Positions 26,075 through 36,808 of a stretch of 64,000 nt of DNA are shown one piece after another. This DNA comes from Mycobacteriales bacterium (GTDB lineage Bacteria; Actinomycetota; Actinomycetes; BP-191). A program made the translations under genes and the position numbers. The stretch lies in the NCBI GenBank assembly GCA_035714365.1, contig DASTMB010000037.1:62001-126000 (forward strand), written 5' to 3'. The notes below the pieces were generated by a model. It was given only the letters and a program-made list of their open reading frames with translations. It was not told the DNA's origin and searched no databases. The first letter of the stretch is position 1. Each line of letters opens with the position of its first letter.

Positions 26075-26139
26075 GACACCCCAGCCGCCCCGTTCACTGC
26101 AACGCCGGGGGAAACCGGGACCGGGCGACGCCTGCTGCG

Positions 26140-26145
26140 TAGGCT
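26140..26145 (+). promoter_or_regulatory. -10 box of the Roco gene
   Basis: TAGGCT lies 22 nt before the GTG at 26168. Transcription would start near 26152 and leave a short leader with AACGGGGG as a weak ribosome binding site. No clear -35 box is seen. Confidence 0.4.
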
Positions 26146-26167
26146 GACGGCAGCGAACGGGGGTGCG

Positions 26168-28861
26168 GTGGACCGCGAGACGGCTGAGGCGCTGGAGGAG
26201 GCCGAGGAGACCGGCGTCCTCAAGCTGGAACGCCTCGTCTCGGTGCCGCGCGAGGTACGGGGGCTGACCGGCCTCCGCGAGCTCCGGCTCGTCGACGGCG
26301 AGTTCGAGCTTCCGTACTGGCTACCGGCACTCACGTCGCTCCGGGTGCTGGACCTGCACGACAGCGTCGTGCCGTCACTCGACCCCCTGATGGGGATGGA
26401 GTCGCTCCGCGCCCTCGGCCTGTCGGGCCTGTCCGGGGCATTGCGGGAACGGGCGGTCAGGACCTTGACCGGTCTGGAGGCGCTGGTGGCGCCGGACACC
26501 GATACCCGCGCCGTCCCGCCGTGGATCGCCCGACTCACGAACCTTCGGCTGCTCGACCTCGGCGGCAACCCTCTCGGACACATCGCGCCCGGCATCGAGC
26601 TCCCGGCACTGGACGCGCTGTTCCTGTGGGGCCATGAGTTCTCCCGCGTGCCGGATGCGTTGCGCGCGCTCAGCCGGCTTCGCGTCCTCGACCTGAGCCG
26701 CGGCGGGTCGCACGACCGACCGCGGAACGAGGAGCCGTCGATCGGAGAGTTCAACCTCTGGCGCTTGGTCGGCCGCGGCACCAGGAGGCGCGGTATCACG
26801 TCCCCCTTCCAGGAACTACCCGACTGGGTCGCGGGGCTGCCACTCGAATGGTTGAGCGTGGCCGGGCTGGGCCTCCCCACGCTCCCGGAGCTGCCGCCGA
26901 CGCTGTGGTGCCTCTACGCCCGACGCAACGCCTTCACCGAGGTCCCTCCCTCGGTGACGCGGCTCCCCCGGCTCGCCCGGCTGGACCTGAGCCGCAACGC
27001 GATCCGCGACATCGACCCGCCCACCCTCGACCGGCTGCGGCACCTAAGCCTCCTCGACCTCAGCGGGAACCCGCTCGGCGTGCCGCCGGAGGTGCTCGCG
27101 GACGAGACGACGACCCCCCGCACGCTCGCGGACTACCTCACCCGGGTGAAGACCACCGGCCGTCCGCTGAACGAGGCGAAGCTGCTGGTGGTCGGCGAGG
27201 GCTCGGTGGGCAAGACGTCGCTGATCCGGCGGCTGGTGCGCGGCGACTTCGCGCCGTACGAGTCGAAGACGGAGGGGATCGCGGTCACCCGCTGGCCGAT
27301 CCAGACGTCCGGCGACCCGGTGACGTTGAACGTCTGGGACTTCGGCGGCCAGGAGATCATGCACGCGACGCACCAGTTCTTCCTGACCCGCCGCAGCGTG
27401 TACGTCCTCGTCCTCGACACGCGGCAGGGCGAGGAGCAGAACCGCGTCGAGTACTGGCTCAAGCTCGTCAACGGCTTCTCCGACTCCTCCCCCGTCATCG
27501 TCGTCGGCAACAAGACCGACGAGGGGGTGCTCGACATCGACGTCCGCGGGCTCCGGGCCAAGTACCCGAACGTCGTCGCCGTGCTGCCCGTCTCCTGCCG
27601 GTCCGGCGCCGGGGTCGAGGAGGTGCGGCAGCGGGTCGCGCAGACCGTCGACGCACTGCCGCACGTGCGCGACGCGCTGCCGCACGGCTTCTTCGCGGTG
27701 AAGGACGAGCTCGCCGCGCTGGACGTCAACTACCTCGGCTACGACGAGTACACCGGGATCTGCGCGCGCCACGACGTCCTGGAGCCACCGGCGCAGGAGC
27801 AGCTGGTGGGGTTCCTGCACGACCTCGGCAGCGTGCTCTGCTTCCGCGACGACCCGCGGCTGTCCGACACGAACATCCTCAACCCGACGTGGGTGACCGG
27901 CGGCGTCTACCGGCTCCTCAACTCGAACCTCGCCGCGCAGCGGAAGGGCCTGCTGCGCTGGGCGGACGTGGACGCGATCCTGGACGACCCGGACTACCCG
28001 CCGCAACGGCGCCAGTTCATCGTCGACGTCATGAAGCGCTTCGAGCTCTGCTACGAGGCTGACGGCACGTTCCTGGTCCCGGACCTGCTGACGAAGGAGG
28101 AGCCCGACACGGGCAGCTGGGACGACGCGCTGCACTTCGAGATCGCGTATGACATCTTGCCGACCAGCGTCATCTCCCGGCTGATCGTCCGGATGCGGTC
28201 CCTCATCAGCAGGGAGACGGTGTGGCGCACCGGGTTCGTCGCGCGGATGGACAGGAGCCGGGCGCTGATCCGCGGCGACCGGGAGGACGCGGTGGTCACG
28301 GTGGACGTGACCGGACCGCCGGAGGGCCGCCGCGGGATCCTCACGATGATCCGCGGCGAGCTGCGCGCGATCACCGCGACGATCCCCGGCCTCACCTGCC
28401 AGGAGCGCGTGCCGGTGCCGGGCTACCCGGGCGTGTGGGTCCCCTACGACCACCTGCTGAACCTGGAGGCGGCCGGCCGCCGCACCGTCGTCCCGCAGGG
28501 CCTCACGATCGAGTTCCCTGTGCGGGAGCTGCTCGCCGGGGTCGACGAGCCGGTGCCGGTGCCCGTGGGGCAGGCCCAGGTAGAGCCGGCTCCGCAACCC
28601 GCGCCGCCGCCACCCGTGGACGGCACGCCGTGGCAGCCCCGGGAGGCGATGTGGCTGGGCGTCCTGCTGCTGGGCGGGCTCCTGCTCCTCGCCGTCGCCG
28701 TGCGGCTGCTGAAGCTCGGCCCGGCAATCATCGCCGTGGCACTGCCCGCCGTCGTCGTCCTGGCGTTCGTGGTGCTGCGCGTCACCGGCCGCGTCTCGGA
28801 GGGGGCGCTGACCGACATCGTGAAGGGCGTTCTCACCCGGAAGGACGGTGAGTCTCCCTAG
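26168..28861 (+). CDS. Bacterial Roco protein: LRR, ROC GTPase, COR and two C-terminal membrane helices
   Basis: The GTG at 26168 gives 897 residues. Residues about 20-325 are leucine-rich repeats (LRVLDLHDS, LRLLDLGGNPL, LARLDLSRNAI, LSLLDLSGNPL). The ROC G-domain has the P-loop GEGSVGKT (343-350), switch II WDFGGQE (390-396), NKTD (448-451) and SCRSG as G5. A COR region spans about 500-740 (VLCFRDDP, NPTWVTGGVYRLLN). A Pro-rich linker (PQPAPPPPV) leads to two hydrophobic helices at about 828-875. Roco proteins work as dimeric GTPases in signalling; a kinase domain is absent, so output may be through the membrane. It is single, next to tRNA genes and a restriction operon. Confidence 0.9.
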   Translation: MDRETAEALEEAEETGVLKLERLVSVPREVRGLTGLRELRLVDGEFELPYWLPALTSLRVLDLHDSVVPSLDPLMGMESLRALGLSGLSGALRERAVRTLTGLEALVAPDTDTRAVPPWIARLTNLRLLDLGGNPLGHIAPGIELPALDALFLWGHEFSRVPDALRALSRLRVLDLSRGGSHDRPRNEEPSIGEFNLWRLVGRGTRRRGITSPFQELPDWVAGLPLEWLSVAGLGLPTLPELPPTLWCLYARRNAFTEVPPSVTRLPRLARLDLSRNAIRDIDPPTLDRLRHLSLLDLSGNPLGVPPEVLADETTTPRTLADYLTRVKTTGRPLNEAKLLVVGEGSVGKTSLIRRLVRGDFAPYESKTEGIAVTRWPIQTSGDPVTLNVWDFGGQEIMHATHQFFLTRRSVYVLVLDTRQGEEQNRVEYWLKLVNGFSDSSPVIVVGNKTDEGVLDIDVRGLRAKYPNVVAVLPVSCRSGAGVEEVRQRVAQTVDALPHVRDALPHGFFAVKDELAALDVNYLGYDEYTGICARHDVLEPPAQEQLVGFLHDLGSVLCFRDDPRLSDTNILNPTWVTGGVYRLLNSNLAAQRKGLLRWADVDAILDDPDYPPQRRQFIVDVMKRFELCYEADGTFLVPDLLTKEEPDTGSWDDALHFEIAYDILPTSVISRLIVRMRSLISRETVWRTGFVARMDRSRALIRGDREDAVVTVDVTGPPEGRRGILTMIRGELRAITATIPGLTCQERVPVPGYPGVWVPYDHLLNLEAAGRRTVVPQGLTIEFPVRELLAGVDEPVPVPVGQAQVEPAPQPAPPPPVDGTPWQPREAMWLGVLLLGGLLLLAVAVRLLKLGPAIIAVALPAVVVLAFVVLRVTGRVSEGALTDIVKGVLTRKDGESP

Positions 28862-29136: not shown

Positions 29137-29210
29137 GGGCAGGTAGCTCAGTTGGTACGAGCGTCCGCCTGAAAAGCGGAAGGTCGGCGGTTCGACCCCG
29201 CCCCTGCCCA
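29137..29210 (+). tRNA. tRNA-Phe (anticodon GAA)
   Basis: The 74-nt cloverleaf has acceptor stem GGGCAGG/CCTGCCC, D-stem GCTC/GAGC, T-arm GGCGG-TTCGACC-CCGCC and anticodon loop CTGAAAA. It ends 3 nt before the stop codon of the convergent vsr-like gene, so the restriction operon abuts the tRNA cluster. Confidence 0.96.
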
Positions 29211-29213
29211 CCA

Positions 29214-29651
29214 CTACCGCGGCGGCACCGCCCGCCGCACGGTCGCCTGCACCGCGTCGGCAACGGTCTCCGGCGCCTCGTGCTCCCAGAAGCGCAGCAC
29301 GGTCCAGCCGGCCGCCTGCAGCCGGTCGGTGGTGTCACGGTCGCGCTCCTGGTTCACGCCCAGCTTGGTCCGCCACCAGTCGGCGTTGGCCGCCGGCTGC
29401 GTCCCGTGGGCGGCGCAGCCGTGCCAGAAGCACCCGTCGATGAACACCGCGACCCGCTGCCGCGTGAACGCCACGTCGATCGTCCGCCGGCGCAGGCCCG
29501 GGATCCGGTACGCGACCCGGTACCGCAGCCCGCGCGCGTGCAGCAGCCGGCGCACCTCGATCTCCGGCTTCGTGTCCCGGCGGCGGAGCCGGCTCATCCG
29601 CGACGACACCTCCGCCGACGACGGGCCTGGGTGCTCGGGGACGCGGGTCAC
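29214..29651 (-). CDS. vsr: Very short patch repair endonuclease
   Basis: The GTG at 29651 overlaps the preceding stop as GTGA and gives 145 residues. Family motifs are SSRMSRLRRRDTKPEIEVRR at the N-terminus, the catalytic Asp D59 in TIDVAFTRQRVAVFIDG, and GCFWHGC (74-79). Later come WWRTKLGVNQERDRDTTDRL and WTVLRFWEHE. Vsr nicks next to T:G mismatches that arise when 5-methylcytosine deaminates. It is the last gene of the operon that begins with a C5-cytosine methylase, a classical pairing that protects the genome from methylase-driven mutation. Confidence 0.93.
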   Translation of the reverse strand: MTRVPEHPGPSSAEVSSRMSRLRRRDTKPEIEVRRLLHARGLRYRVAYRIPGLRRRTIDVAFTRQRVAVFIDGCFWHGCAAHGTQPAANADWWRTKLGVNQERDRDTTDRLQAAGWTVLRFWEHEAPETVADAVQATVRRAVPPR

Positions 29652-29941
29652 TGGAGGAAGAACTCCACCGCCGTCAGCACCGCCCGCAGGCCGGGCAGGG
29701 TGACGGTCTCGCCGCGCGACTCGAAGTGCGGCAGCCACACCGCGCCGCTCGCCTCGACGATGCCGCGGGCCAGCCCGGTCTTCGTCTCGCCGGGGTCGAT
29801 GCCCAGCGACAGCACCCGGTTGACGGCGGCGAAGATCTCCCGCGGCTCCTTGCTCCCGGTCGACATCGGCGGGGCGGCAACGCCGATCCAGGCCGCGATG
29901 GCGGCGACCGCGTCCGCCTTCACGTACCGGCCCGATGTCAC
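29648..29941 (-). CDS. Small unknown protein of the restriction operon
   Basis: The 97-residue protein starts at a GTG that overlaps the upstream stop by GTGA, and its own stop overlaps the vsr start in the same way. It begins MTSGRYVKADAVAAIAAWIG and contains EPREIFAAVNRVLSLG, then TKTGLARGIVEASGAVWLP and SRGETVTLPGLRAVLTAVEFF. The composition suggests a compact alpha/beta fold with no signal peptide or membrane helix. I recognise no family. Tight coupling on both sides argues that it is a working component, perhaps a partner of the PD-(D/E)XK-like protein. Confidence 0.7.
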   Translation of the reverse strand: MTSGRYVKADAVAAIAAWIGVAAPPMSTGSKEPREIFAAVNRVLSLGIDPGETKTGLARGIVEASGAVWLPHFESRGETVTLPGLRAVLTAVEFFLQ

Positions 29942-30789
29942 GACGCCGCCCGCAGCCGCTCGACCTCCGCGGCCGCCCAACGCAGCGCCGGCAGCAGCCG
30001 TTCCGGTTGCGGCCGCCCGGCGAGGAGCCCGGCGAGCCGTGGCCGGTCGAGGATCAGCGTCCTGGCTGCGAGCCGGTTCCACGGCTCGCCGGCCGGCACC
30101 ACGCCGGGCACCGCCAGCGCCGTCATGGGGTCGACGTCGAGGCTGAGCCAGCCGTCCCAGACCCGCAGGTCGATGTCGCCGGCCTTGTGCTCGTAGTCCT
30201 GCTCGAGGGTGCACTGCGCGAGCAGGACCGGGAACCCGGAACGGCGGTCGACGAACGGGCGCCAGGCGACGACGTCCACCCCGCCGTCCTTGCGGTACGG
30301 CGGGCGGTACGCGCTGCCGAGCGGCGCGCCCATCCGCTCCGCCAGCCACCGCACCGCCGACGAGAACTCCTGCGGCCGGCCCTCGTCGGACGGCCAGGCG
30401 AACCGCAGCACCTGCGTGCCCGGCCCGAAGAACTCGTCCAGGGCGGCGCCCGTCACCTGCTCGAGGTGGACCGCTGCCTCCTCCAGCCGGAGGGAGGTGC
30501 CGCCGCGGACGCCGGGGGTCAGGAGCAGCAGCGCAGTCCAGGGGGTCGAGCCGGCGTGCGGCAGCGCGGCGATGCCCCCGCCGGCGACGCGGAACGGGTA
30601 CGCCTCGCCGAGCAGCGCGCTCCGCCGGGCCATCGTGCCGGTGCCGAGGCCGACGTCGGCGCCGCGGATCCCGGCCGCGGCCGCGAGCTCGGCGAGGGCG
30701 TCGCCGCTGACGGCCGCACCGCGCGTGAGGGCCACCAGCTCGAGCCAGTCGGCGACGTCGTTCGCCGCGCGGCGTACCGGCTCAGTCAC
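29938..30789 (-). CDS. PD-(D/E)XK-motif-like nuclease subunit (DUF4420-like)
   Basis: The GTG at 30789 overlaps the end of the ParB-like gene by 8 nt. The 283-residue protein has an N-terminal helical region and then a nuclease-like core. Asp lies in DGGVDVVAWRPFVDRR, followed one strand later by LLAQCTLEQDYEHK. The usual (D/E)xK Lys is replaced by a QC pair, as in several restriction-associated relatives, so catalysis may use a variant site. The family is known next to Z1-domain ATPases and DNA methylases. It is likely the cleavage subunit of the system. The assignment rests on motif spacing and context. Confidence 0.7.
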   Translation of the reverse strand: MTEPVRRAANDVADWLELVALTRGAAVSGDALAELAAAAGIRGADVGLGTGTMARRSALLGEAYPFRVAGGGIAALPHAGSTPWTALLLLTPGVRGGTSLRLEEAAVHLEQVTGAALDEFFGPGTQVLRFAWPSDEGRPQEFSSAVRWLAERMGAPLGSAYRPPYRKDGGVDVVAWRPFVDRRSGFPVLLAQCTLEQDYEHKAGDIDLRVWDGWLSLDVDPMTALAVPGVVPAGEPWNRLAARTLILDRPRLAGLLAGRPQPERLLPALRWAAAEVERLRAAS

Positions 30790-31873
30790 GGCCCAGCGCC
30801 GTGAGCAGCGCGTCGGTGGCGCCGCGCGCGTCGTCCACGAGTGCCGCGACCTCCGCGTCGTCGGCGAAGTCGGCGACGTCCTCGATGGCGCCGTTGAGCG
30901 AGTTACGGGCCGTGCGCAGGCGGTGCACGAGCCGTTGGCGCGGGTCCAGGTCGGCGTCCTTGACCTTCTGTAACGCCATGTCGAGCGAGTCGCCGTGCCG
31001 CAGCGCGCCGAGGCCGACGGTGTTCGCGACGACGTTGCCCAGCTTGCTGATCTCGCGGGAGTCGCCGATGACCGGCTCGGTCTCGCCGTCGCCGTAGATC
31101 CAGGTCAGCAGCTCCCGCAGCGCATCTGCCTTCTCGGCCGGGATCGGGTCGGCGCCGGGGGAGAGCCGCGAGCCCAACGGCGCCCCGACGTGGTCGCGCA
31201 GCTTCGGCGTGCTCATCGCGACGGTCAGCAGCGAGAACGCGTTCTCGACCGGACCCGTCTCGAGGCCGAGGCGGCGGGCCTGCTCGGCGATCGCCTGGTC
31301 GCGGTACAGGTTGCCGACCTTGGTCCGGTCGATCCCGGTCGTCTCCGCGACCTCCTCGAAGCTGAGGCCGTCCTCGTGGACGAGGTTCGCGATGTACCTG
31401 GCCTGCGCGTACGGCTGCCACTGCAGGATGCCGCTGATGTGGCGGAACCCGATGATCGGGGTCGCCGCCTTCCGGTCCGGCAGGACGACGACGGGCACCA
31501 GGTCGTCCGCCGCCACCGCCGTCTGCTCGGCGAGGGCGTTCCACGGACCCGGGTTCGCGAACTGCGCGCGGACCTCCGGGTCCAGCAGCCCGAGCAGCGC
31601 GGTGAGCCGGCGGTTGCCCTCCACGACGGTCCAGGTGCCGGGCTCGTCGCCGGCGACGACGATCAACGGCTCGCTGCCGAAGAAGCCGTGCGACGCGATC
31701 GAACGCGCCACCGTCAGCGCGTCGAAGGCGAGTTCGAGGTGGACCGCGAGCTCCTCCTGGTCGTGCCCGACGAGGTTCGGTGGCAGCCGCGGGTTGCGCG
31801 GGTCCAGCCGCAGGGTGCGCAGCGGCACCCGCCGCGCCTCACCCATCGAACGAACGTCCTTCGGCTCCCCCAT
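30782..31873 (-). CDS. ParB/sulfiredoxin-fold DNA-binding protein
   Basis: The 363-residue protein starts at an ATG at 31873, one nucleotide after the Z1 gene stop. The N-terminal ParB-like domain (about 10-170) has VPLRTLRLDPRNPRLP, VVEGNRRLTALLGL (the conserved nucleotide-binding GNRR segment) and VPVVVLPDRKAATP. A helix-turn-helix follows (LSFEEVAETTGIDRTKVGNL). The C-terminal half is helical. ParB-fold proteins in mobile or defence loci bind DNA, and some hydrolyse CTP. Within this operon it could recognise the site or load the Z1 ATPase. No parA lies nearby, so it is not a partition system. Confidence 0.8.
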   Translation of the reverse strand: MGEPKDVRSMGEARRVPLRTLRLDPRNPRLPPNLVGHDQEELAVHLELAFDALTVARSIASHGFFGSEPLIVVAGDEPGTWTVVEGNRRLTALLGLLDPEVRAQFANPGPWNALAEQTAVAADDLVPVVVLPDRKAATPIIGFRHISGILQWQPYAQARYIANLVHEDGLSFEEVAETTGIDRTKVGNLYRDQAIAEQARRLGLETGPVENAFSLLTVAMSTPKLRDHVGAPLGSRLSPGADPIPAEKADALRELLTWIYGDGETEPVIGDSREISKLGNVVANTVGLGALRHGDSLDMALQKVKDADLDPRQRLVHRLRTARNSLNGAIEDVADFADDAEVAALVDDARGATDALLTALGRD

Positions 31874-31874
31874 C

Positions 31875-33944
31875 TCAACCCTTCCGTACGACGTGGCGGC
31901 GGCCCGCGTGGACCGCCAGCGTGAACAGCTCCGGCGTCTGCGCCGGATCGGTCGCCCGCACCCGGTGGACCTCGACGACGACCCGTTCCGGGTCCTCCTC
32001 GACGTTACCGATCGCGCGGTCGCCGCGGTACGCGGCCTGCCCCGCGACCGGACGCGGGTCCGCGCCCTGGAGCAGGTTGACGAACCCTAGCTCGGGATCC
32101 CACTCGCGGCGGCGCGGGCCGCCCTGCGGGTGCTCCAGGAGCACGACCGGGACCTCCCCGTGCTCGGGCAGCCGGCGCAGGAAGTCGACCAGCTCGGCGT
32201 GGCGCCAGCCGGGGCTCGTGCCGACGCCGACACCCGCCCACGGCTCCAGCAGCCCGTCGAGGACGGTGTCGAGCGGCAGGTGCAGCGTCCGGTGCTCGAG
32301 CCGGCCGTAGGCGACGCGCGGCGCGTCGAGGAGGCCCAGCCCGGCGACGAGCGCCGCGTTCGCGGCGACGTCCACCGGCTCGAGCGACGGCCGCCGCAGC
32401 TGGTGCCACGTCGGTCGTTCGTTGAACCGGACCAGCGCCCCCAGCACCGCCTGGCGTGTCGGCCGCGTCCCCTCCGGCAGGAGCAGCCCGATCTGCTCGG
32501 CCCACCCCGCGACGTCGTTGCCGGCGGCGAGCCAGTCGCGCAGGCTGGCGCGGAGGTCGTACTCGGTGTCGACGATCTCGCGGAGCAGCTTCAGCGTCCG
32601 CGGCGTCGCGAAGAACTGGCAGTACGGCAGCAGGTCGCCGCGGTACCCGAACGCGCGCGCGCGTTGCTCGAGCGTGTCGACCTGGTCGCTTGGCGGGCGG
32701 TTCATGTACGTGACCGTGAGCCCCTCGACGGTGAAGCCACGGTCGAGCTTGTTGCCGCCGACGAGAAGGTGCACCGGCGCCGCGCGCCAGTCGATACGGT
32801 CGACGTCGCTCGCGGAGTTCACCAGCCACGGCGTCGCCTCCCGCAGCACGTACCTGACCTGCTCGAGGAACGTCGCCGGGTCCACGTCCCGGCCGCCGAG
32901 ACGGGCGATGCGGACCCGCTCGTCGGTCACCTCGGGCGGCAGCTCCGCGACGGTCGTCGCGGCCTCGGCGTCGGCCGCCCAGCGGCGCAGCAGCCGGCGC
33001 AGCAGGTAGTGGTACCGCTCCTGCACGTCGTTGCGCTGGGTCGAGTGGACGAGCATCGACACGGGGGCCGACGTGGGGTCGGCCCCGAGCAGCATCGCGG
33101 TACCCGCGACGAACGCGCCCACGGCCGAGACCAGCGACCGCGGGAGGAGCGTCGGCAACGACTTCGGCGGCTGCTCGTCGAGCGTCGGGATCGGCCGTAC
33201 CACGACGTCGGCGTGGTCGACGAAGAACTCGCGCCCGCCGGTGTACCCGGGGCCCGGCTGGAGGAGCTCGACGAAGTCCGGGCGCAGGTGGTCCTCCGGC
33301 TCGAGCAGCAACGGCGCGTAGGGGGTCGCCGTGAACTGCACGTACAGGTGGTTGGGCACCGCGGCGCGGAGCCGGCTGAGCGCGGCGTACGTGCGGCTCA
33401 CGGTGGCCTGGTTGACCTGCGTGTTGAGGCTGGCCTGGTCCGCCTCGTCGTCGATGACGAGCACCGGCTCGTCGCCGACCCCCGCCCGGGCCAGCACGTC
33501 GGCGAGGGAGGTGAGCCGCCCGGCGTGCTTCAGCACCGACACGAGCAGCACGCGGCCGCGGCCCAGCCACTCCCGCATCTCGCGGGCCCGGGTGGCCCCT
33601 GCCGGGCTCTCCACGTGGATCCAGCGGTAGTCCTCGCGCTCGCCGATCCCGAGCGCCCCCGTGAGCCGGGCGGCGTTCTGGCCGAGGAGCAGCCTGGTCG
33701 AGCCGAGGACGGTGACGACGACGCGGTACCCGGCATCGGCGGCGGCCGCGGCGAGCGCCGTGATGGCCGTCGTCTTCCCGGACTGGACGTAGCCGAGCGC
33801 CAGTCCCGTCGCGCCGGCATGTCCGCCGGGCGCGAGGGGGCCGTGCGCGAGGATCGCGTCGATCGACGTCCAGACGGACCGCCGTGCGTCGTCCGGGAGC
33901 CCCCGCGCGACCAGGCCGGCGTCGAGCCGGTCGCGTTCGCGCAT
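31875..33944 (-). CDS. Z1-domain superfamily II ATPase of a restriction system
   Basis: The ATG at 33944, after GGGAGAG, gives 689 residues. The helicase-like core has Walker A GYVQSGKTT (K57), Walker B IDDEAD and motif III-like FTATPYA. The Z1 region follows with HLLVGGNKLDRGFTVEGLTV, then YMNRPPSDQVDTLEQRARAF. Z1 proteins are known beside DNA methylases, Vsr and PD-(D/E)XK proteins in predicted restriction systems. It probably couples ATP hydrolysis to movement on DNA or remodelling before cleavage. The gene follows the methylase by 11 nt in the same operon. Confidence 0.88.
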   Translation of the reverse strand: MRERDRLDAGLVARGLPDDARRSVWTSIDAILAHGPLAPGGHAGATGLALGYVQSGKTTAITALAAAAADAGYRVVVTVLGSTRLLLGQNAARLTGALGIGEREDYRWIHVESPAGATRAREMREWLGRGRVLLVSVLKHAGRLTSLADVLARAGVGDEPVLVIDDEADQASLNTQVNQATVSRTYAALSRLRAAVPNHLYVQFTATPYAPLLLEPEDHLRPDFVELLQPGPGYTGGREFFVDHADVVVRPIPTLDEQPPKSLPTLLPRSLVSAVGAFVAGTAMLLGADPTSAPVSMLVHSTQRNDVQERYHYLLRRLLRRWAADAEAATTVAELPPEVTDERVRIARLGGRDVDPATFLEQVRYVLREATPWLVNSASDVDRIDWRAAPVHLLVGGNKLDRGFTVEGLTVTYMNRPPSDQVDTLEQRARAFGYRGDLLPYCQFFATPRTLKLLREIVDTEYDLRASLRDWLAAGNDVAGWAEQIGLLLPEGTRPTRQAVLGALVRFNERPTWHQLRRPSLEPVDVAANAALVAGLGLLDAPRVAYGRLEHRTLHLPLDTVLDGLLEPWAGVGVGTSPGWRHAELVDFLRRLPEHGEVPVVLLEHPQGGPRRREWDPELGFVNLLQGADPRPVAGQAAYRGDRAIGNVEEDPERVVVEVHRVRATDPAQTPELFTLAVHAGRRHVVRKG

Positions 33945-33955
33945 CGTCTCTCCCG

Positions 33956-35305
33956 TCAGGCCGTCCGCAGCCGGCTCGCAGGCCGCTCGACGCGCGGCGT
34001 CGGTCCGGCGTCCCGGACGGCGTCCGCGATGTGGCCCGGCACGTCCGGATCGGCCAGGACGTGCTCGCGCAGGACATGGTAGGCGGCGCCGACCGCGACG
34101 CCGTTGCCGAGCTGCTTGTACGTCGCCTTGTCCGCCTGCGTCCCGAAGTCGAACCAGTCGGGCAGCCCCTGGAGCCGGGCCGCCTCCCGCGGCGTGATCC
34201 GCCGGCGCCGCGGGCCGACGACGCTGGTCTGCGTGATCGCGACGAGCGCGGGGAGGTAGGTCGGCTGCTTCGCCCGGATGCCGCTCGGACGCAGGTGCAG
34301 CACCGCGTCCCACAGCGACGGCAGGTCCTGGGCCTGCCACTCGAGCTTGCGCCGCGACGGCGGGAACGCCTTCAGCTCGGGGTGGTCGCTCCGCCAGGCG
34401 TCGATGACCTCGCGGTGCTCGCGGTAGAACCCGCTGTTCTTGGTGAGGAAGTCGACCTTCCAGCCGGGGGCGCCCGCGGGCACGGCCGGGTTGACCCGGA
34501 ACGCGTCGGCCCAGAGCGGGAACCCCGGCAACGGCACGCCCTCGCGCACCTCGAGCAGCCGCGCGACGAAGTCGGCCCAGACGTCGATCCACCGCTGCTC
34601 GGCGGCGCTGAGGCGGTAGCGCTGGGTCGCCGCGGACTCCGTCTCCAGCGGCAGGTGCTGCCCGACGTCCCACGAGCGCGGGTCCCAGCCGGGCACCGGC
34701 CGGCGCGGGACCGGCGGCGGGACGTCGGTCGCCGCCATGGCGCGGGTGCGGCCGACGTACGTGCCGACGATGAACACGCGCTCCCGGACCTGCGGCGTCC
34801 CGCCCTGCTCGGGCGGCAGCAGGTGCGGCGAGAAGACGGTGGGCGTGCCGGACACGCGGTAGCCGAGCCCCCGCAGCGTGTGGACGATCGTCGCCCACGT
34901 CTCCGCGTGGCGCGGGCCCGCGAGGTTACGGACGTTCTCCAGCAGGATCACGCTCGGGCGGCGCGCCTCCAGCAGCTTGGCGATGTTGAAGAACAGCGTG
35001 CCGCGCGTCTCGTTGATGCCGCGCTGCCGGCCGGACTTGCTGAACGGCTGGCACGGGAACCCCGCGCAGAGGACGTCGATCTCCGGTACGTGCGGCGCGA
35101 CCTCGGGCTCGGTCAGGCCGACGATGTCGTCCTCGAGGAGCGGGCGGCCGGCGGCCGGCACGACGTCGGCGCCCCAGTTGCGCTCGTACACGGCTCGCGC
35201 CCCCGGGTCGATCTCGGAGACGAGGACGCAGGTGCCGCCCAGCGCCGACATCACCGCGTGGAAGCCACCGATCCCCGCGAAGAGATCGGCGTACGTGAAC
35301 GGCAT
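33956..35305 (-). CDS. DNA (cytosine-5)-methyltransferase
   Basis: The 449-residue enzyme has the C5 methylase motifs in order: I YADLFAGIGGF, IV GFPCQPFSKSG with catalytic C85, VI LLENVRNL, VIII QVRERVFIVGTY, and IX-X ARLQGLPDWF to YKQLGNGVAVG. The variable region of about 180-370 residues is the target recognition domain; the target sequence cannot be read from it. It transfers a methyl group from S-adenosylmethionine to cytosine and is the first gene of the six-gene operon. It protects self DNA against the restriction activity of the other products. Confidence 0.95.
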   Translation of the reverse strand: MPFTYADLFAGIGGFHAVMSALGGTCVLVSEIDPGARAVYERNWGADVVPAAGRPLLEDDIVGLTEPEVAPHVPEIDVLCAGFPCQPFSKSGRQRGINETRGTLFFNIAKLLEARRPSVILLENVRNLAGPRHAETWATIVHTLRGLGYRVSGTPTVFSPHLLPPEQGGTPQVRERVFIVGTYVGRTRAMAATDVPPPVPRRPVPGWDPRSWDVGQHLPLETESAATQRYRLSAAEQRWIDVWADFVARLLEVREGVPLPGFPLWADAFRVNPAVPAGAPGWKVDFLTKNSGFYREHREVIDAWRSDHPELKAFPPSRRKLEWQAQDLPSLWDAVLHLRPSGIRAKQPTYLPALVAITQTSVVGPRRRRITPREAARLQGLPDWFDFGTQADKATYKQLGNGVAVGAAYHVLREHVLADPDVPGHIADAVRDAGPTPRVERPASRLRTA

Positions 35306-35833: not shown

Positions 35834-36808
35834 TCAGCGGAACGCGTCCGCGCCCACCCACCACACGAACGCGCCCGCGGCCGGGCCGTCGCCGCCGCGC
35901 GTGACGTGCACGGAGCCGCCGTACGAGCCGGCCGCGAGCGGCGCGCTCTCGAACGTCTCGTGGGCGACGCCCTCGAGCGTCACCGGCATGCCGCCGGAGG
36001 CGTGCAGCGGCGGCGCGACGCCGGGCGCGGGGACGGCCGCGGTCGCGGCGCACGGCTCGGGCACGCCGCCGGCGGGCGCGAGGGTGCCGCCGGTGACGCA
36101 GGCGGAGTAGGAGAACGCCGCGGGGATGCCGGGGACGCCGGCGTGCCAGACGCCGGCGACGGCGAGGCCGTGGCCGCGGAACGAGTGCGCCGCGCTGGTG
36201 GCGGCGACCGCCGTGGCGGGGCCGTCGTCGCGGTCCCCGGTGAACGCCGCGTCCACCCTCCGGGTCGCCTCGATCGCCATCCCGCCGCGCGGGCCGGCCA
36301 GGTCGAACTCGAAGAACGACAGGCGGCCGGGCGGGGCGCTGAGGACGAGCTGGTACGTGCCGGCCGGGATCGGGTGGCGCCGCGTGTGGCCGACGGTGCG
36401 GACCTTGCCGGGGAGGTTGAAGTACGCGTGCTGTGCCCAGTCGCTGCACGGCCACGGGGGCGTCGGCGCCTGCCGCGACCCGCAGTGGTCGGAGTCCGGG
36501 AGCTGGACGGCGACGACGTTGGCCGGGGCGCCGTTGACGCGGGCGGTGCGGGAGATCAACGCGATCCCCGACCACTGGTCGGTCCGCGCGTAGTCGGCGG
36601 TCCAGGCGGAGAGGGAGCCGTCGGACGACAGGTACTCGATGAGCTCGGCGCCGCGCGGCACGACGACCTCGGTCGTGACGTTGCCGACGCCGTAGACGAT
36701 GGTGACCCCGCGCAGCGTCACCGGACGCGCGGCGGAGGCGGGAGAGACGGGCAGGAACGCGGTCGCGACGGCGAAGGCGGCGACGGCACGGCGAAGCAAG
36801 GACGACAT
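35834..36808 (-). CDS. Exported protein of unknown function
   Basis: The ATG at 36808 follows GGGGGG. The 324-residue precursor has a signal peptide ending SPASA (about residue 26). The mature region is beta-rich, with GNVTTEVVVPRGAELIEYLS, SDHCGSRQAPTPPWPCSDWA and PAGTYQLVLSAPPGRLSFFEF. Segments near both ends (VTLRGVT and VTLEGVAHETF) look similar, which may reflect two related beta domains. I recognise no family. Confidence 0.75.
   Translation of the reverse strand: MSSLLRRAVAAFAVATAFLPVSPASAARPVTLRGVTIVYGVGNVTTEVVVPRGAELIEYLSSDGSLSAWTADYARTDQWSGIALISRTARVNGAPANVVAVQLPDSDHCGSRQAPTPPWPCSDWAQHAYFNLPGKVRTVGHTRRHPIPAGTYQLVLSAPPGRLSFFEFDLAGPRGGMAIEATRRVDAAFTGDRDDGPATAVAATSAAHSFRGHGLAVAGVWHAGVPGIPAAFSYSACVTGGTLAPAGGVPEPCAATAAVPAPGVAPPLHASGGMPVTLEGVAHETFESAPLAAGSYGGSVHVTRGGDGPAAGAFVWWVGADAFR

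Follow-up and report, generated by a model that had tools for sequence, protein, structure and literature searches.

What does a ParB-like protein, of a kind known mainly from chromosome segregation, do in an operon that otherwise resembles a restriction system? The question is raised by six genes on the minus strand of a 64,000-nucleotide stretch of actinobacterial DNA (Mycobacteriales bacterium, assembly GCA_035714365.1, contig DASTMB010000037.1, positions 62,001 to 126,000; hereafter the window), which is part of contig C37 of a 3.8-Mb source genome (G000) with 74% GC. In order of transcription they encode a C5 cytosine DNA methyltransferase (MTase), a Z1-domain ATPase, a ParB-like protein, a predicted PD-(D/E)XK nuclease (pdx), a conserved helical domain of 97 amino acids (p97) and a Vsr mismatch endonuclease. 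A preliminary description had read these genes as a restriction-type operon with gaps of at most 11 nucleotides and mostly overlapping genes; the distances from MTase to Vsr are 11, 1, −8, −4 and −4 nucleotides, and the layout is borne out, as are the kinship with Z1/MORC restriction systems and the likely presence of a PD-(D/E)XK nuclease. We find that the ParB-like protein belongs with pdx, and that the operon is probably a nucleoside triphosphate (NTP)-dependent restriction-modification system, borne by a small accessory island next to a tRNA-Phe gene, with Z1, ParB, pdx and p97 as its machine.

Obligate pairing of the ParB-like protein with pdx

An alignment of the ParB-like protein (363 amino acids, 30782..31873, minus strand) was scanned against 84,980 species genomes, yielding 80 loci. 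Hidden Markov models of ParB and of pdx (283 amino acids, 29938..30789, minus strand) were built here and applied to 205 loci drawn from genomes, viral contigs, plasmids and phages. The pdx gene lay directly 3' of ParB in 200 of these 205 loci, mostly overlapping it or separated by a few nucleotides, and the two proteins form an obligate pair. Loci with the pair span many phyla together with P2-like prophages, and given that most of them are without Z1, the pair is independent of Z1. A C5 methylase is found within 5 kb of the pair in 137 of these loci, while L164, L096 and L158 carry a D12-class N6 methylase that matches PADLOC PD-Lambda-5_B at 313-355 bits and the methylase of L005 scored as Type II, apparently N4/N6. 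In the P2-like phages Wphi (gp98, gp96 and Mth), 12474III and Pseudomonas Citexvirus D14A, the pair converges on a C5 methylase, making this trio a candidate prophage-borne restriction-modification system. The phage trios lie at L126 96-3266, L127 3911-6878 and L128 3911-6947. Two ParB-like proteins are present in an actinobacterial group of loci (L158-L160, L165, L170, L173, L178, L183, L186, L192, L204 and L207); in L165 and L170, the loci read, ParB-pdx is preceded by a D12 methylase and by a ParB that is long and diverged, an arrangement resembling a PD-λ-5-type locus joined by pdx.

The N-terminal part of the ParB-like protein matches PADLOC PD-Lambda-5_A at 1e-19, with residues 20-204 aligned to positions 18-200 of the 473-position profile and no match beyond. 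It is remote matches in the same region, to TIGR00180 (0.0017) and to PDB entries of ParB/Noc/Spo0J (0.02-0.07), that suggest its ParB identity. Among 110 ParB-like sequences, D24 and N27-P28-R29 (together the DxxNPR motif of residues 24-29), E68, E85-G-N-R-R89 (31621-31607), H145 and W152 are invariant, and EGNRR aligns with the GxRR box of ParB/Noc/Spo0J in the weak PDB profile matches. NTP binding is plausible, judged from sequence and by analogy with DUF262 NTPases such as DndI, a ParB-superfamily protein working with a nuclease (PMC11662687).

Neither pdx nor p97 had a match above chance level in Pfam, NCBIfam or PADLOC. Because MspJI comes out as the nearest match both by comparison of the AlphaFold2 fold and by profile search, pdx is likely to be a nuclease. 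Its model (pLDDT 94.4), compared with the PDB by Foldseek, had three MspJI chains on top (E 1-3e-4, best 1.1e-4); below them, with weak E-values, came further restriction or PD-(D/E)XK enzymes amid unrelated folds. The profile search reached the MspJI catalytic core at E 0.022, with D172 (30276-30274) corresponding to DGGVD and Q192 (30216-30214) to GQAKC. Across 121 aligned rows, D172 is conserved in 100%, Q192 in 99% and K202 (30186-30184) in 95%, and R249 is invariant. Catalysis by pdx, as predicted from model and sequence, is likely but not certain. A search for pdx in 396 sampled genomes of the phylum returned the window itself as the sole match.

A conserved four-gene core with variable partners

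Z1, ParB, pdx and p97 occur on one strand and in that order in 17 actinobacterial-type loci (the window, L125, L129, L131-L134, L136-L140, L142-L144, L185 and L270, with the Z1 gene of L134 cut by the contig), and this recurrence indicates that the operon is not a chance assembly. Absence of the ParB-like and 97-residue genes from all related loci had been named in the preliminary description as an outcome that would speak against it; both genes recur in relatives. Two loci, L135 and L141, have Z1-ParB-pdx without p97, L130 is cut by a contig end, and L271 has Z1-ParB-p97 with pdx missing and an HNH-like gene nearby, as if one nuclease had displaced another. The closest complete relative found is MT835579 (L125), with the order Vsr-MTase-Z1-ParB-pdx-p97 and identities to the window of 37% (Vsr), 57% (MTase), 70% (Z1), 71% (ParB), 57% (pdx) and 64% (p97). 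After this set comes another ParB-pdx pair in converging orientation, and L137 also has two pairs, arranged in tandem. The record MT835579.1 is labelled an unverified bacteriophage of human faecal origin, and most of its genes look bacterial.

The identities proposed earlier for MTase, Z1 and Vsr agree with family models and intact motifs. MTase (449 amino acids, 33956..35305, minus strand) matches PF00145 at 2e-63 and PADLOC DruM2 (PDLC00034) at 646 bits; it scores above the PF00145/TIGR00675 cut-off for C5 DNA methyltransferases, and motifs I, IV, VI, VIII and X are present (FAGIGG, PCQ, ENV, QVRER and GNGVA, with PCQ and ENV catalytic). Z1 (689 amino acids, 31875..33944, minus strand) matches PF10593 at 2.6e-32, above cut-off, and has the intact Walker A motif (GYVQSGKT, 33794-33771) and DEAD-type box (DDEAD, 33452-33438) of an SF2-like ATPase. 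Vsr (145 amino acids, 29214..29651, minus strand, with a GTG start within a GTGA overlap) scores 117.7 bits against a TIGR00632 cut-off of 97.85 and keeps the motif FIDGCFWHGC. In relatives, Vsr and the methylase are found near the core but on either side and on either strand.

The p97 gene (29648..29941, minus strand) encodes a protein that is 51-59% identical to most of its closest relatives in an 18-sequence alignment. Its AlphaFold2 model (pLDDT 91.6) is helical and had no structural match in the PDB; a weak sequence match to the FD15 entry 8ugc was set aside. Elsewhere p97 occurs in fusions with an AspBHI-type reader of modified cytosine (L142), HNH_2 (L275), NOV_C (L277) or an unclassified nuclease-like domain with the motif FDY…WD(L/F/I)K (L146, L272, L273, L274 and L276), and the C-terminal domain of L146 had no match in the PDB. 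A second p97 in the source genome (L269 9184-10605, G000:C87) is the C-terminal domain of a DndB-like protein and lies a long way from any methylase that was seen. A tree of 143 methylases groups 23 of the 24 p97-linked ones in one clade (SH-aLRT 100), within which Z1-ParB-pdx-p97 loci interleave with p97-nuclease fusions; the p97-less L135 and L141 lie inside the ParB-linked Z1 clade, yet their methylase belongs to another clade. We also drew an unbiased, methylase-first sample of 28 window-class methylases from 395 genomes regardless of p97. A p97 was near nine of them (two of the nine being weak), and the remainder stood beside GHKL-Z1-DUF4420, another nuclease-like gene or unknown genes. 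Given this proportion, p97 is not required by the methylase class, and the idea, prompted by the methylase tree, that it is the methylase's obligatory specificity subunit was rejected; p97 is a portable restriction-enzyme domain tied to one methylase class. In L315-L318, window-class methylases adjoin a family of ~242 amino acids (...GEVYLPGVKT...EIKH...), which looks like an undescribed partner nuclease.

At its 3' end the operon abuts a tRNA-Phe gene (29137..29213, plus strand, found with ARAGORN), with the vsr stop codon adjoining the tRNA 3' end at the next base. Similarity to two congeneric genomes, G396 and G397, stops at 29213/29214, and both have no operon at tRNA-Phe and no ParB gene. 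The homologue of the gene at 35834-36808 ends ~20 nucleotides from tRNA-Phe in G397 (L256), and in G396 (L255) the distance between tRNA-Phe and the pyridoxamine-oxidase gene is 0.9 kb. Since the operon is missing from both congeners, it represents an accessory insertion at tRNA-Phe. It is present as a single chromosomal copy. No flanking repeat or integrase was found at the island; duplication of an integrase att site was rejected, as the tRNA end is unrepeated at the other border and the longest shared word is 9 nucleotides. Beyond the boundary, 26075-28861 (plus strand) encodes a Roco (LRR-Roc-COR) protein whose Roc, COR-A and COR-B domains all score above cut-off, adjoining the tRNA-Glu-Asp-Phe array.

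Proposed mechanism and competing explanations

We reasoned that if the operon is a restriction-modification system, the C5 methylase would mark the host's own sites while Z1, the ParB-like protein, pdx and probably p97 would make up one restriction machine. In this model, pdx would cut DNA through an MspJI/Mrr-like PD-(D/E)XK active site, and its obligatory ParB-like partner, probably a DNA clamp or sensor that binds NTP, would license pdx. Z1 would use ATP to power movement on DNA or communication over long distances along it, p97 may be a small adaptor or recognition domain, and Vsr would repair the T:G mismatches that arise by 5-methylcytosine deamination at the methylase's sites. The association of ParB-pdx with C5 or N6 methylases across phyla is one reason for preferring restriction-modification, and such a machine would be expected to act in phage defence. 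Several observations weigh against it. Foldseek TM-scores between pdx and MspJI are low (0.23-0.24), pdx has Q in place of E/D, and its lysine is at Q+10 rather than Q+2, on the next helix. What suggests NTP use by the ParB-like protein is a motif, the role of p97 is weakly constrained given that about two-thirds of window-class methylases have no detectable p97 nearby, and the core in L137 has no methylase within 9 kb.

The last observation also bears on the main rival, in which two systems are neighbours: a methylase-Vsr modification unit, and a modification-dependent, type IV-like Z1-ParB-pdx-p97 core directed against modified foreign DNA. MspJI, to which pdx is nearest, is a modified-cytosine-dependent enzyme, the p97 fusion in L142 brings in a reader of modified cytosine, and the orientation of the methylase varies. 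However, the methylase adjoins the core in most core loci, the window's six genes are packed as described above, the window has no such reader domain, and the methylases that accompany ParB-pdx in different phyla belong to two or more unrelated families, as restriction-modification predicts. We consider this two-system explanation unlikely.

The preliminary description had suggested that the ParB-like protein takes the role of the GHKL/MORC ATPase switch, such that ParB-type and GHKL-type Z1 systems would be alternatives. No GHKL (MORC/MutL-like) ATPase is present in the operon, the genome's two PF13589 matches being on other contigs, and none of the six operon proteins has a Pfam match to DUF4420 or AIPR; a PF14390 search of the genome gave no match, but its search controls gave none either. 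In the Z1 tree, ParB-linked Z1 proteins form a single clade (support 100/100), indicating that the core was inherited together. Within the window's 20-member Z1 clade, ParB directly follows Z1 and neither GHKL nor DUF4420 was found. By contrast, ParB and pdx are absent from 11 Z1 loci of other actinobacterial genomes that were found independently of ParB; DUF4420 was detected in eight of these, and GHKL clearly in one and weakly in four. These distributions are compatible with a weak form of replacement, confined to the window's Z1 clade. As stated, replacement does not hold, because ParB accompanies pdx as a unit whose loci mostly have no Z1, and because three loci have both: L148 (Labedella), L172 (Terriglobia) and L206 (Hydrogenedentota) share the order methylase-GHKL-Z1-DUF4420-ParB-pdx, with a full GHKL-Z1-DUF4420 set directly before the pair. 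The GHKL of L148 was confirmed by Pfam (HATPase_c_3, 3.7e-16). Strict mutual exclusion, the check proposed in the preliminary description, is therefore refuted, and a switch role for the ParB-like protein appears improbable. The Z1 proteins of these three loci are sister to the window's clade and group with Z1 proteins of GHKL loci. A simple history would be that ParB-pdx joined a GHKL-Z1-DUF4420 system and that the window's clade later lost GHKL and DUF4420.

In several loci a gene of repeated HTH/HNH-repeat domains lies directly upstream of Z1, and an apparent region of this type is sometimes found at the N terminus of Z1 itself; the window has neither. These proteins are possible DNA-reading subunits. 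Arrays before Z1 were seen at L135 5297-6952, L136 5105-6946, L138 589-1845, L140 5669-6967, L144 5705-6934 and L271 3780-6167, and at L142 4084-5610 the array protein is upstream of the methylase, not of Z1.

That Vsr itself is the restriction nuclease, with pdx and p97 structural, would fit the Vsr-fold enzymes known in MORC-type restriction operons (PMC2292703). This is very unlikely, as Vsr has no fixed position and was not found in L129, L135, L137, L141 and L142, the Vsr of the window scores above the cut-off of the canonical model, and the pdx nuclease motif is kept in ~120 diverse sequences. An epigenetic or chromosome-organising operon with ParB in partition or regulation, which the predicted ParB fold and the single chromosomal copy might suggest, is highly improbable given that no ParA partner exists in the operon or was seen among the relatives examined, that the distribution is horizontal and prophage-borne, and that congeneric genomes lack the genes.

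Discussion

Restriction operons combining Z1, a methylase and Vsr are already known, and the operon is best read as a variant of the Z1/MORC type that has its ParB-like domain in common with PD-λ-5. Z1/MORC-type restriction operons, including Vsr-fold enzymes, were described by Iyer (2008; PMC2292703), and these operons and MZA have in common with the window a C5 methylase, a Z1-type helicase/ATPase, Vsr and, as predicted for pdx, a PD-(D/E)XK protein. The window differs in having ParB-pdx-p97 instead of GHKL/MORC, DUF4420 and AIPR, and its Z1 matches MzaC weakly (101 bits against a cut-off of 1500). CglI and NgoAVII likewise unite three such parts, C5 methylase, nuclease and Z1 ATPase, in systems that cleave only with NTP hydrolysis (PMC4267653, PMC5737866). 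NTP-dependent cutting at a set distance from the site is a criterion for membership of that class. Their nuclease, however, is PLD-type with a B3 DNA-binding domain, whereas the window has a predicted PD-(D/E)XK protein with ParB and p97; no Pfam match to PLD or B3 was found in any of the six window proteins.

PD-λ-5 protects E. coli against phages and was regarded by Vassallo and colleagues as a compacted restriction-modification plus abortive infection (RM+Abi) system (PMC9519451). The match between the N-terminal region of its protein A and the window's ParB-like protein falls short of whole-length identity, and its B methylase is N6-type where the window's is C5, although other ParB-pdx loci do carry the B type; relative to PD-λ-5, the window further has pdx, Z1, p97 and Vsr. 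A 2013 survey of HEPN proteins described operons of a ParB protein, a DNA methylase and a HEPN protein (MAE_28990; PMC3710099), of which we infer that ParB-pdx-methylase is the DNase counterpart. MspJI and AspBHI resemble the window in the predicted catalytic core of pdx and in the AspBHI reader carried on p97 in L142, but the pdx lysine is displaced by 8 residues, and the window has ParB and Z1 partners in place of a reader domain. GmrSD, SspE and DndI join a ParB-superfamily (DUF262) NTPase with a nuclease; this likeness is one of analogy, as the window has a separate ParB-like gene that is not DUF262 and a predicted PD-(D/E)XK rather than an HNH/DUF1524 nuclease. The DruM match to Druantia type II concerns the methylase alone, with no match to DruE, DruF or DruG in the operon.

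We found no description of the ParB-pdx-p97 core in the open-access literature searched. ParB-pdx is probably an unrecognised, reusable anti-virus module, and there is a real chance that it deserves its own name. More tentatively, and with some doubt, we suggest that the pair could be a restriction engine that spans phyla and still lacks a name: a ParB-fold clamp dependent on NTP would load or license an MspJI-like nuclease, the methylases would be interchangeable, and the window's clade would add a Z1 motor and p97 as a portable recognition or adaptor domain common to several unrelated restriction nucleases. If true, a ParB-fold protein would be central to a widespread DNA-restriction module, which would join Z1/MORC restriction operons, PD-λ-5 and unannotated pairs like gp98/gp96 of P2-like phages, and pdx and p97 would each gain their first function-linked family.

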